NCBI GenBank assembly: GCA_026993785.1
Contig: JALWRZ010000008.1
Coordinates: forward strand, 1 to 63,228
Direction of reading: 5' to 3'
Length of the DNA stretch: 63,228 nt
From: DHVE2 group archaeon
GTDB taxonomy: Archaea > Thermoplasmatota > Thermoplasmata > Thermoplasmatales > Aciduliprofundaceae
The notes beneath the pieces are model-generated. The model worked only from the letters and a program-made list of their open reading frames with translations, was not told the DNA's origin and searched no databases. A program made the translations under genes and the position numbers. This document shows positions 49,425-53,444 of the stretch, one piece after another. Numbering within the stretch: position 1 is the first letter of the stretch; every line of letters begins with the position of its first letter.

Positions 49425-49838
49425 ATGATGAGCATTGAGAGCTTGCCTGAGCGGGGAATCTACGCACTTCTTTTAAGGTATGAAGGCGGAGATATAGAGA
49501 TCGGAGCTCTAGGCAAGCTCCATTTTCCTCCAGGGTACTATGTTTACATAGGCTCTTCCCAGAACAATCTTAGAAAGAGGATTGAGAGGCATATGCGTCG
49601 AGAGAAGAAGCTTAGATGGCACATAGACTATTTTGTGAAGAATGCGAAAATCGTGGATATAGTGGCTGCAGAGCTGTCCAAGCTGTGGGAAGAGAGAATC
49701 GCGCTGGAGCTGCAACAGAGATACGAGTTTATAAAAAATTTCGGAGCTGGAGATTCTTCGGCTCGCTCGCATCTTTTCTATTCCCCTTCTTTAGAGATCT
49801 GGGAGTTTGTAAAGTTGCTGTTGAGAAAGCTTAAATAA
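49425..49838 (+). CDS. DUF123 (GIY-YIG-like) protein
   Basis: A 137-residue protein of the DUF123 family, related to GIY-YIG nucleases. The motif pair is GIYALLL ... YYVYIGSS, followed by NLRKRIERHMRREKKLRWHIDYF, and a later FGAGDSSARSHLFY. In some archaea this domain is fused to endonuclease III, suggesting a repair role; a catalytic Glu as in true GIY-YIG enzymes is not obvious. The TATA-like TCATATAGTAG is 21-31 bases upstream. The PfkB gene follows after 20 bases. Confidence 0.82.
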   Translation: MMSIESLPERGIYALLLRYEGGDIEIGALGKLHFPPGYYVYIGSSQNNLRKRIERHMRREKKLRWHIDYFVKNAKIVDIVAAELSKLWEERIALELQQRYEFIKNFGAGDSSARSHLFYSPSLEIWEFVKLLLRKLK

Positions 49839-49858: not shown

Positions 49859-50683
49859 ATGTTTCTCCTCTATTTCGGACACGTGAACTTCGATACCATT
49901 CTCCGCGTCTCTAGGCTCCCGGGAAAGGGTGAGAGCACTGAAGTTCTCAACATATTTGAGAGAATTGGCGGCACCGCGTACAATGCGTATATGGGCCTCA
50001 GAGCTTTAGGTGTGCCTGTGCACCTATTCACCGTGGTAGGTGAGGATTTTAGCGACAAGCTTGAGGGCTGGGTTATTAAGGGCTCTCGTACTCCCAGATG
50101 CTGGATAGTTAGCGATGGAAAGGAGCAGAGCGCCTTTATGTATCAGGGACTGTGGAAAAATGAGGAAGAGCTGCATATAGATTTCGATGCTCTCGGTGAA
50201 TACGAGTATCTTCATTTCTCCACGGGCAACCCCAAATTCTATCTTAAAGTTGCAAGAGAGGGAAAAAGAAAAGGCGCGAAAATTGCATTTGACCCGTCCC
50301 AGGAGATTCATTACGTATATGATAGACGCATGTTTCGAGAGCTTTTAGATCTTGCAGATCTCTTTTTCTGCAATGAGAGAGAATATGAGAAGGCGGAGGA
50401 ATACGCTTCAGACATACTTTACTCTAAGATAATTGTGAGAACGGAGGGAGATAGAGGCGCTTCTCTTTACCTTCCAGAGGAAGGATGGAAACATTTCCCC
50501 GCAAATAAGGTGGATGTTGTGGATACTACCGGCGCCGGAGATTCTTTCAGAGCGGGGTTCTACGCAGCCCTCTATCATGGTTATTCGATTGAAGATGCAG
50601 TAAAATGCGGTAACAGCATAGCTGCGAAGGTTGTAAGCTCCACGGATACCTATTACACGGGTCCCTGGGATGGCTCATGCTAA
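49859..50683 (+). CDS. PfkB-family sugar/nucleoside kinase
   Basis: A 274-residue ribokinase-family enzyme. The N-terminal signature includes GGTAYNAYMGLRALGVPVHLFTVVGED, where the substrate-binding Gly-Gly is at about residues 37-38. The C-terminal catalytic signature is DTTGAGDSFRAGFYAAL, with the base Asp in GAGD. The family phosphorylates ribose, nucleosides, fructose derivatives or similar. It is slightly shorter than the usual 300 residues. It sits close behind DUF123 and overlaps the convergent Cas4-like gene by nine bases. The substrate is not predictable here. Confidence 0.87.
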   Translation: MFLLYFGHVNFDTILRVSRLPGKGESTEVLNIFERIGGTAYNAYMGLRALGVPVHLFTVVGEDFSDKLEGWVIKGSRTPRCWIVSDGKEQSAFMYQGLWKNEEELHIDFDALGEYEYLHFSTGNPKFYLKVAREGKRKGAKIAFDPSQEIHYVYDRRMFRELLDLADLFFCNEREYEKAEEYASDILYSKIIVRTEGDRGASLYLPEEGWKHFPANKVDVVDTTGAGDSFRAGFYAALYHGYSIEDAVKCGNSIAAKVVSSTDTYYTGPWDGSC

Positions 50684-51646
50684 TCTCTCAGGGCATATAT
50701 CACGGCGAGAGCAGTGAAGACACTTGCCCACCCTCTTGTGATTTCTGTGCACCTCCCCAGTTTCCAGTGTTTTTCTCATCTCCTCCACCTTTTTAAGAAG
50801 CAACGCTTTGAGATCTTCATCGTAGTCTATGCGATACACCACATCTCCGTACTTTAATAGTCCGTAGGGCGGTGTACCGTAATTTTCCTCGGTGAGAAGC
50901 ATGTACGCAGTTAGCTGCATTATGTGGGAGAATAGAGGACCTCGGGGCACGCGCCCGGTCTTGAGCTCTATAGGTATGTAATCTTTGCCCGCCTTTATTA
51001 GCAGGTCTGGCCTGCCCCAGATCTTGTACTTCTCGCTCTTTAAAAGCGGAGCCTCTTTCAAATCGTCAATATAGATAATCTCTCCGTCGGGAAGCATGAG
51101 CTCTTTTTTAAGCGAGTTGTACCTTATCTCGCCTCTAAGTGCAAGAAACAGAAAATAGGAGGCGAAGATGAGCCAGAGAAGTGAGGAAATCTCTAAAAGA
51201 TAGCCCAGAATATAGTTGGGCGGCAAAACGAAGGTGACGGCGAGAACGGAGAACACGGTGGCGGCTACGGCAAGAATGATCATGATTCTTTTTATCTTTC
51301 CCGTGCCCCAGGTGAGCGTGCCGCGCTCAGAGCGCCAGAGTAGATAAAGGGCTACGATGATCCAGAATATGGAGAGTGAGATGAATATCTTGCCAAGCAG
51401 CACGATGGTGTAGAAAAATGCTATGCCCAAAATTGCCACAACGGTGGCAGCGAGAGAATAGTACATTATCATGCTCTCAAAGGTCTTAATCTTCTTCTTC
51501 TCCTCTCTCAGCTCCTCCGCCTTCTCTCCAATCTCCCGATGCTTTCTAACCCCCTCTACATCCATATCTTTCTCTTCCCTGCTGAGCCACCAGCTGAGTG
51601 GACAGTAAGAATACTTCTCAATATCTCCTGCAGATATGTAATCCAC
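50675..51646 (-). CDS. Membrane-embedded Cas4-like nuclease
   Basis: A 323-residue protein combining a Cas4-type RecB-family nuclease with membrane helices. Conserved Cas4 parts are the first Cys in YSYCPLSWWLSRE, the nuclease core GRPDLLIKAGKDYIPIELKTGR (D and E-x-K) and three C-terminal Cys in CLHCSRRDICPERL, which with the first Cys should hold a [4Fe-4S] cluster. Between the first Cys and the core about 130 residues form four hydrophobic helices (about 60-190), absent from CRISPR Cas4. The start is GTG 51646 (TTG 51652 possible); a TATA element AATTTAAAATA is at about 51671-51681. No CRISPR array or other cas gene is near. Confidence 0.82.
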   Translation of the reverse strand: MDYISAGDIEKYSYCPLSWWLSREEKDMDVEGVRKHREIGEKAEELREEKKKIKTFESMIMYYSLAATVVAILGIAFFYTIVLLGKIFISLSIFWIIVALYLLWRSERGTLTWGTGKIKRIMIILAVAATVFSVLAVTFVLPPNYILGYLLEISSLLWLIFASYFLFLALRGEIRYNSLKKELMLPDGEIIYIDDLKEAPLLKSEKYKIWGRPDLLIKAGKDYIPIELKTGRVPRGPLFSHIMQLTAYMLLTEENYGTPPYGLLKYGDVVYRIDYDEDLKALLLKKVEEMRKTLETGEVHRNHKRVGKCLHCSRRDICPERLA

Positions 51647-51731
51647 CTGCAAAAATAAGAGTGCTCAATATTTTAAATTTTTGTTGAGATTTCCTGAGTT
51701 CGTTACTTTCTCCAGAATAAAGAGGAGCGAA

Positions 51732-53444
51732 TCAAATACCCATTAAGAAGTGGAACAGTAGAAGCGAGAAAAATATGCTAAGGAGGAGAGTCACGGGAGC
51801 CACAAGCTTGGCTCTGCCTACCCCGAGCCTCGTCATCTCAGTGAGCCTGTGCAGCTGACCTCTCGTTGCCATATGCAGCATCACATGCTTTGTGGAAGCT
51901 TCTACACTCACACTCTCCATATTCTGCAGAGCGTCCTTCACCGCAGCCTCTATCTCATCGAGCAAAGGCTCCCAGGGATCTCGCTCACCCACAGGATTCA
52001 GATCAAGGAAATTGTAATTTACAATATGGTTATCGGTGGAGAAAATCTCCGCCTCATCAACGATGCCAATAACTCTCTCTCTGGTTCTATCTCTAAGCCC
52101 CTTCTTTACATTGTTTCCGTCCAGGAGAATATACGCAATTTTCTTATCCTTATACTTGAAAACTGCAACCCTTATACCTCCAGGCCCTATACTCTTACCC
52201 TCCACTTTGCGCATCGCGCATCCCATTATAATGGGCGCATCAGCCTCCATGCCACGCAACTCTCTCTTTATGTTATTTATATGATGAGCATGCAGCGTGA
52301 GGGGCAGCGCGTTCACATCAAAGTTGTTATGCGCATCCACAACCATAACCTCTTCCATAGAGCTATTGAGCTTTCTGCGCAGGCTCATCCCGGCAGAAAA
52401 ATCCACATCGTCAAAAAGCTCTCCTGTGGGAATGAGGAAGAGCAAAGCATATTTTCCAAATATCTGGGCCGCGATATCTATGTTCTCTACCCTAAACCTG
52501 TGAAAATCGCTCATTTTATCGTATTTTCCTCCGCCATCGTAGTTTTTCACGATCTCAGCAATCTTCTTCACATCCTCCTCAGTGGCAATATTGTCATCGT
52601 GGGTAGTGGTAGTATGAAACACCATGAGATTCGATAACCCCGTATGCTTCTCAAGCTTGTTAGGGATATTGCTTCCTCCTACATCACCGAAGGGGCCAGG
52701 ATGGATATAGGGAAACACAAATAAGCATTTGAGAGAGCGATCTTTGCGATGAAAGCCTAGCAAGGTTACTGGCACCTCTCTGGGCCTGTATATGCTTTTA
52801 AAGAATCCGTTGAGCTGATTAACCTCGTCACCGTCCTGGCGACCCAGATAGTTGATGAAGGAAGAGAGGAACCACAGCGGATCCTCTCCAAACTCTCTGA
52901 TAAAATGAATAATAGAGAAATGAAGCGCGAATTCTGCCAGTGCAAGATAAACTAAGGTGGATAGAAGATAGGGCACAAAGTATGCGGGAAAGAAAAAGAG
53001 AGAGATGAGGATGTAGATTATATTGTAGAGGCTTCCAATCCAGGGTGCCAAGAGCTTTCTATTATGAAAAAATACCCTATAGACGATGTGTCTCAGGTAC
53101 ACGAGGGACGCGAATCCGAGAAAGAAAGAGAAGAAGAAGGAAAAGAATATGCGAAATATAACAAAGAGAAGCAGCGCAAAGGCGAAGGCGAGAATATTGA
53201 GGTACGAGATCCTCTTGATTGGAAAATACACTCGTGAGATGCGAACAAAAAAGTAATCTAAGAAGGTTATGACCACATAGGGAAGCGCAAAGAGGAGGAG
53301 CGCCTTTATAAAATCGAGGGAGGTGATGTAGGAGAAGAGTATGATTAGAAGTATTGAGGTTATGAAAGTGAATGTGAAAGACGGAACCTTCTTGGGCAGA
53401 TACCTGCGAAGGTCAATCACATACTTTTCTTCCGCCTGTGCCAT
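51732..53444 (-). CDS. DUF2070 archaeal membrane protein
   Basis: A 570-residue protein of archaeal family DUF2070. About six to seven helices fill residues 20-180. A soluble domain (about 200-540) has conserved His/Asp motifs: FPYIHPGPFGDVGGSNIPNKLEK, MVFHTTTTHDDNIATEEDV, VDAHNNFD and STDNHIVNY. A final helix ends the protein (VTLLLSIFFSLLLFHFLMG). The His/Asp-rich motifs suggest a metal-dependent hydrolase acting near the membrane, though no activity is established. It lies upstream of the Cas4-like gene on the same strand, 86 bases apart. Confidence 0.88.
   Translation of the reverse strand: MAQAEEKYVIDLRRYLPKKVPSFTFTFITSILLIILFSYITSLDFIKALLLFALPYVVITFLDYFFVRISRVYFPIKRISYLNILAFAFALLLFVIFRIFFSFFFSFFLGFASLVYLRHIVYRVFFHNRKLLAPWIGSLYNIIYILISLFFFPAYFVPYLLSTLVYLALAEFALHFSIIHFIREFGEDPLWFLSSFINYLGRQDGDEVNQLNGFFKSIYRPREVPVTLLGFHRKDRSLKCLFVFPYIHPGPFGDVGGSNIPNKLEKHTGLSNLMVFHTTTTHDDNIATEEDVKKIAEIVKNYDGGGKYDKMSDFHRFRVENIDIAAQIFGKYALLFLIPTGELFDDVDFSAGMSLRRKLNSSMEEVMVVDAHNNFDVNALPLTLHAHHINNIKRELRGMEADAPIIMGCAMRKVEGKSIGPGGIRVAVFKYKDKKIAYILLDGNNVKKGLRDRTRERVIGIVDEAEIFSTDNHIVNYNFLDLNPVGERDPWEPLLDEIEAAVKDALQNMESVSVEASTKHVMLHMATRGQLHRLTEMTRLGVGRAKLVAPVTLLLSIFFSLLLFHFLMGI

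Follow-up and report, generated by a model that had tools for sequence, protein, structure and literature searches.

A Cas4-family nuclease interrupted by predicted membrane helices, with fused and split forms across Thermoplasmatota

What is the role of a Cas4-like nuclease that carries predicted membrane helices within its catalytic domain and lies apart from cas genes? The question is posed by one gene in the window, the whole 63,228-nucleotide stretch of DHVE2 group archaeon DNA analysed here. Comparison with relatives, whose N-terminus reads MDYISAGD, favours a GTG start over an alternative TTG at 51652 that would give an open reading frame of 325 aa (50675-51652). Residue numbers in the text (C17, H38, D216 and others) follow the 325-aa TTG form (P0001). 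The features of the locus are as follows.

50675..51646, minus strand: gene for the Cas4-like nuclease, predicted to be membrane-embedded; 323 aa from GTG, start set by comparison with relatives
51473..51646, minus strand: N-terminal half with the first cysteine (Cys1) and the G34-x3-H38 motif; equivalent to the stand-alone N gene in split relatives
51602-51604, minus strand: Cys1 (C17), present in 59 of 59 homologues
51539-51541, minus strand: H38, present in 58 of 59 homologues (G34 in 59 of 59)
51404..51469, minus strand: predicted membrane helix 1, residues ~62-83 (hydropathy and AlphaFold)
51332..51397, minus strand: predicted membrane helix 2, residues ~86-107 (hydropathy and AlphaFold)
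51227..51295, minus strand: predicted membrane helix 3, residues ~120-142 (hydropathy and AlphaFold)
51140..51211, minus strand: predicted membrane helix 4, residues ~148-171 (hydropathy and AlphaFold)
50678..51097, minus strand: C-terminal half with the nuclease core, Q246/Y250 and then Cys2-4 (C311, C314, C320); equivalent to the stand-alone C gene in split relatives
51005-51007, minus strand: core residue D216
50966-50968, minus strand: core residue E229
50960-50962, minus strand: core residue K231
51732..53444, minus strand: DUF2070 membrane protein (PF09843, 4e-120), upstream of the nuclease gene on the same strand
49859..50683, plus strand: PfkB-family sugar kinase (PF00294, 3e-38), convergent

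The 3' end of the PfkB-family kinase gene shares 9 bp with the nuclease gene; the kinase is not considered part of the nuclease system. A gene for a DUF123/GIY-YIG-like endonuclease also lies near the nuclease gene (49425-49838, plus strand).

The protein is a Cas4-family PD-(D/E)xK nuclease with four predicted membrane helices. It matched Pfam PDDEXK_1 (E = 2.9e-13) and Cas_Cas4 (E = 2.8e-7), and all three Cas4-family profiles scored above their curated cut-offs: the NCBIfam cas4 model TIGR00372 with 84.5 bits against 65, and PF01930 and PF12705 as well, the two remaining pairs of bits and cut-off being 31.2 against 22.7 and 50.7 against 22. By sequence, the protein also matched the Cas4 of Pyrobaculum in the PDB, though weakly (E = 0.002). 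Across 59 full-length homologues C17, C311, C314, C320, D216, K231, Q246 and Y250 were invariant, H38 was kept in 58, and position 229 was E in 57 and D in the other two. AlphaFold, supplied with the 59 relatives as alignment, returned a model (pLDDT 91.9, pTM 0.80) in which long helices (32-78, 84-109, 117-142 and 147-185) accompany a PD-(D/E)xK core. In Foldseek the best PDB match of this model was 8d3l, a type I-C Cas4 (E = 4e-5); the top matches were Cas4 of type I-C and of Cas4/Cas1 complexes, followed by MGME1 and Dna2. Profiles, fold, hydropathy and AlphaFold thus agree with the first-pass annotation, which had described a Cas4-like nuclease built around four membrane helices with its four cluster cysteines and D/ExK core kept. 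Loss of the catalytic residues in relatives, which that annotation had named as grounds for abandoning the idea, was not seen in this nearly invariant set. By analogy with known Cas4 proteins, the enzyme would be expected to bind an Fe-S cluster and to cut DNA from its ends.

The insert itself is real, and its position can be refined from the original description, which placed about 130 residues of transmembrane helices between the first cysteine and the core. It comprises ~115-125 residues and follows the G-x3-H motif, whose helix supplies a metal ligand, before the D-E-K core begins. Helices 3-4 repeat the hairpin made by helices 1-2 (HHalign E = 2.7e-15, 98.5%). Mean numbers of lysine plus arginine were 3.6, 0.46, 3.05, 0.49 and 3.8 for the N-flank, loop 1, loop 2, loop 3 and the C-flank, respectively, and the pieces of split relatives showed the same positive-inside bias as fused forms. 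Because the counts are high at both flanks and in the middle loop but fall to ~0.5 in the two outer loops, both catalytic halves are predicted most likely to face the cytosol. Conserved predicted helices together with this bias predict an integral membrane protein, and evidence for a protein outside the membrane, another proposed ground for refutation, did not appear. An origin of the insert by chance or as an assembly artefact was rejected, since it is conserved across the class.

How widespread is this architecture? The window gene belongs to a family that spans the phylum and whose membrane parts are modular. Members were present in 146 of 200 sampled Thermoplasmata genomes, mostly in single copy (E ≤ 1e-10), and in 188 of 294 genomes phylum-wide (E ≤ 1e-15); in a scan of genome contigs, the best 80 of 122 matches were all titled as Thermoplasmatota/Euryarchaeota-type archaea. 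Several complete genomes of the window's own order had no detectable copy, so the nuclease is not essential everywhere. The insertion point is constant, and the chain either contains 2, 4 or about 8 helices there or is divided between two neighbouring genes. A single hairpin was found in L239, L243, L246 and L241, two in the window and most relatives, and about four in L144, L145, L152, L236 and L245; wherever the count was clear, the helix number was even. Searches of viral contigs and phage records found no relatives, and Foldseek against viral models returned generic Cas4/RecB-like nucleases only. A viral origin was accordingly rejected.

The broken forms indicate how the two halves of the domain may relate. 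In families f6, f13 and f42, and in second copies in f12, f4 and f3, two adjacent genes on the same strand replace the single chain. In archaea, the N gene (~80-110 aa) encodes Cys1 and G-x3-H and ends in one hydrophobic helix, and the C gene (~170-200 aa) starts with one helix, ahead of the D, E, K and Q residues and Cys2-4. Every one of the 57 short C-halves inspected, six of them plasmid-borne in bacteria, had the N-half just upstream on the same strand, with a small gene between the two in one pair. The cysteines and D were kept in 57 of 57 pairs and H, E, K and Q in 56 each, the full residue set being complete in 56. Some genomes (G020, G039 and f12 members) hold fused and split copies together. 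Split genes as frameshift artefacts were rejected: the division is the same in all 57, some pairs lie in single-contig genomes, start and stop codons overlap or adjoin, and in archaea a helix stands at each cut end. AlphaFold modelled a split C-half poorly from its single sequence, with no alignment (pLDDT 47.8).

The one exception to the full set is the pair at L167:

L167, 5473-5742, minus strand: N gene of the split pair
L167, 4926-5471, minus strand: C gene of the split pair

Here G/H are lost from the N gene and E/K/Q from the C gene, all four cysteines are kept, and in L163 and L170, of the same genus, nothing of the residue set is missing. If the two genes contribute to a shared active site, losses in parallel would be expected; as one event, this is supportive but not proof. 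The L167 pair is possibly a structural or regulatory derivative. From these patterns we infer that N and C halves assemble into one enzyme, which would imply that genes annotated separately, as a PD-(D/E)XK nuclease and as a CFI-box-CTERM or hypothetical protein, are halves of one enzyme. The annotated nuclease half, expressed alone, would probably be a dead protein because it has neither the catalytic histidine nor the first cluster cysteine.

Bacteria carry the C gene as well: it occurs on a Pseudomonas plasmid and on MOBH plasmids, conjugative or mobilisable, from Marinobacter, Vibrio, Aeromonas and Thioalkalivibrio. An N gene was located upstream in all six plasmids inspected, in three of which it is absent from the (incomplete) gene table:

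L155:3582-4516, plasmid two-gene locus
L157:2508-3435, plasmid two-gene locus
L158:2513-3429, plasmid two-gene locus
L159:2490-3483, plasmid two-gene locus
L160:2197-3447, plasmid two-gene locus
L161:2618-3420, plasmid two-gene locus

One of these N genes matches the CFI-box model (NF041770), two more are annotated as CFI-box, two align with them, and the sixth is shorter. With the first-half gene annotated CFI-box-CTERM or left unlisted, databases treat the pair as unrelated.

To place these forms, we built a tree of 99 rows and 185 columns with few ordinary Cas4 proteins and several long branches. Fused forms grouped as a single clade (100/95), with the f6 split forms as its sister (97/90). 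Membrane forms as a whole stood apart from the ordinary Cas4 proteins in the sample (96/92), and the split ones among them were paraphyletic. The comparison with CRISPR Cas4 called for by the first-pass annotation therefore places the membrane form separately from cas1-linked Cas4. The topology suggests that the split state is ancestral and that the window's form arose by fusion, a direction kept tentative by the thin sampling of ordinary Cas4 and by the several long branches.

What, then, could the enzyme do? The DUF2070 gene, from which a functional link had been drawn, offered little guidance: in our neighbourhood survey it adjoined the nuclease gene only in the window and a same-genus relative (L002/L023), and with adjacency confined to one genus we rejected it as a conserved partner. 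Other neighbours recur more widely. Genes for SMC and a ScpA-like kleisin lie directly upstream, on the same strand, of 16 of 16 f6 split pairs, and the SMC, ScpA and nuclease genes mostly overlap or are separated by gaps of a few bases; the kleisin profile matched ScpA structures with E = 9.8e-6, its Pfam match being weak. The gene order in these Thermoplasmatales loci (L133-L138, L163-L172) is SMC, ScpA-like kleisin, N and C, in some cases followed by a Trp/Tyr-tRNA synthetase gene. Fen1 and RadB-like genes are close by in most of them. Directly upstream of 21 fused genes lies a gene for a TPD-motif nuclease (PF14811, 3.3e-43). This TPD nuclease is archaeal and CDIN1/C15orf41-like (L067:5170-5955 and 20 other loci). 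Common ancestry may account for part of the synteny shared inside a family, and as neighbours differ between families (SMC-ScpA, TPD, LTD-PLD or none), the physiological role is uncertain.

The best explanation, and a somewhat probable one, is a membrane-tethered Cas4/AddB-type Fe-S nuclease, its activity and cluster both predicted, that processes DNA ends for chromosome maintenance. According to this model, the N half, which brings Cys1 and the metal ligand of G-x3-H, and the C half, with D, E, K, Q and Cys2-4, would meet at the inner membrane face and form a single Cas4 fold in which they share an active site and an Fe-S cluster, held by 2, 4 or about 8 helices within a continuous chain or encoded as two subunits; in the window's form, two repeated hairpins would hold the halves together. 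The nuclease would process DNA ends or membrane-associated chromosomal DNA, in one family with SMC-ScpA. Given the SMC-ScpA and TPD contexts and the core-gene distribution, we infer chromosome maintenance rather than CRISPR adaptation. Membrane-linked repair, one of the roles first suggested, survives in this wider form, since the SMC-ScpA and TPD-nuclease neighbours agree best with membrane-linked repair or with maintenance of the chromosome. A bolder proposal, offered tentatively and with more doubt than confidence, is that Thermoplasmatota and bacterial conjugative plasmids share an undescribed membrane DNA-processing system, in which two membrane-held Cas4 halves share an Fe-S cluster and active site and, with SMC-ScpA in Thermoplasmatales, couple chromosome organisation to end processing at the membrane.

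Alternatively, the enzyme could be a barrier nuclease that sits under the membrane and degrades entering virus or plasmid DNA, with the plasmid-borne split copies acting in exclusion or counter-defence. The predicted membrane position and cytosolic active site would suit such a function, as would the pairs on MOBH conjugative plasmids, one of them beside TraG genes and another beside DNA methylases. Defence-library matches of the nuclease were to Cas4 models, and in Synechococcus a Cas4-like nuclease lowered the transfer or maintenance of RSF1010 plasmids (PMC10653904). However, the core-gene, single-copy spread and mostly housekeeping neighbours are unlike patchy defence islands, and Cas4 genes as a group carry no arms-race signature (PMC5704561); we regard the barrier function as a live but unlikely alternative.

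A role in DNA intake or scavenging, in which a secreted LTD-PLD nuclease cuts outside and the membrane Cas4 processes the strand inside, appears quite improbable. It draws on a gene for a secreted protein with an LTD and two PLDs, weakly similar to the nuclease NucT, that lies directly upstream on the same strand in 13 loci, with gaps of up to 24 bp and larger overlaps that reflect uncertain ORF starts, and ~1.2 kb downstream of the nuclease gene instead in Aciduliprofundum. Examples of this Thermoplasmatota protein are L085:1138-3177, L024:3385-5223 and L247:91-1914. The window's genome, however, carries its LTD-PLD gene on a different contig, and none was found near split or TPD-linked loci. 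ComEC was detected in 0 of 200 Thermoplasmata genomes, with 10 of 14 control genomes positive, and ComEC-type uptake was rejected. The suggested part in DNA uptake or virus DNA processing thus lost support from the ComEC survey and the viral and phage searches; a secreted PLD nuclease adjoining the gene in several families still leaves room for some kind of DNA intake.

As the first-pass annotation had stated, the neighbourhood has no CRISPR genes, and neither cas1 nor cas2 adjoins the nuclease gene, but the genome does hold a locus for Cas1 and an ordinary Cas4 on another contig. Cas1 occurred in 69 of 200 Thermoplasmata genomes and in 46 of 146 nuclease carriers, being absent from the other 100, with no association across the 200 genomes (Fisher p = 0.18). 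A CRISPR-adaptation Cas4 working with Cas1-Cas2 is thus scarcely credible and was rejected despite the Cas4 profile and fold matches, since most carriers have no Cas1, the gene is not cas-linked, and the tree separates it from the genome's own cas1-linked Cas4. In sum, there is good support for a membrane-bound nuclease of the Cas4 kind that stands outside CRISPR.

Comparison with known systems places the preferred reading among its relatives. The CFI-box-CTERM and PD-(D/E)XK pairs of MOBH plasmids likewise place Cys1/His in one gene and the core of D/E/K and Cys2-4 in the other, and their C-half has one membrane helix, as in archaeal split forms. Their N-half usually ends in the CFI-box (NF041770), whereas the archaeal N-half ends in a membrane helix, and the plasmid pairs are bacterial and form a deep separate branch in the tree. 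AddB, Dna2 and MGME1 are RecB-like nucleases of the same PD-(D/E)xK fold group; they have no membrane insert, and AddB and Dna2 are fused to helicase parts. The Cys1...Cys2-4 layout of the window nuclease is also that of AddB and Dna2. CRISPR-associated Cas4 proteins (PDB 8d3l, type I-C; 4ic1, SSO0001; 4r5q, Pcal_0546) have the core fold and residues in common with it but are soluble, have no insert, work with Cas1-Cas2 and occupy a separate branch. Searches of open-access articles turned up nothing on membrane-bound or split Cas4 or on SMC-ScpA with Cas4. By every feature tested the window protein belongs to the Cas4 family, and by context to its solo-Cas4 group: it lies outside known CRISPR and mobile contexts and is mostly vertically inherited, as judged from distribution only. 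The 2017 survey of Hudaiberdiev et al. (PMC5704561) describes solo-Cas4 (COG1468/pfam01930/TIGR00372) as a vertically inherited group whose function is not known, and the window protein shares with it the four cysteines, the H-D-E-K site, a location away from cas genes, single copy number and a wide spread in archaea. Helices inside the domain and two-gene forms set the present family apart, neither being described in the survey's main text (PMC5704561). For a group as common in archaea as solo-Cas4, a membrane version with SMC-ScpA or other nucleases as operon neighbours provides a concrete, testable lead.
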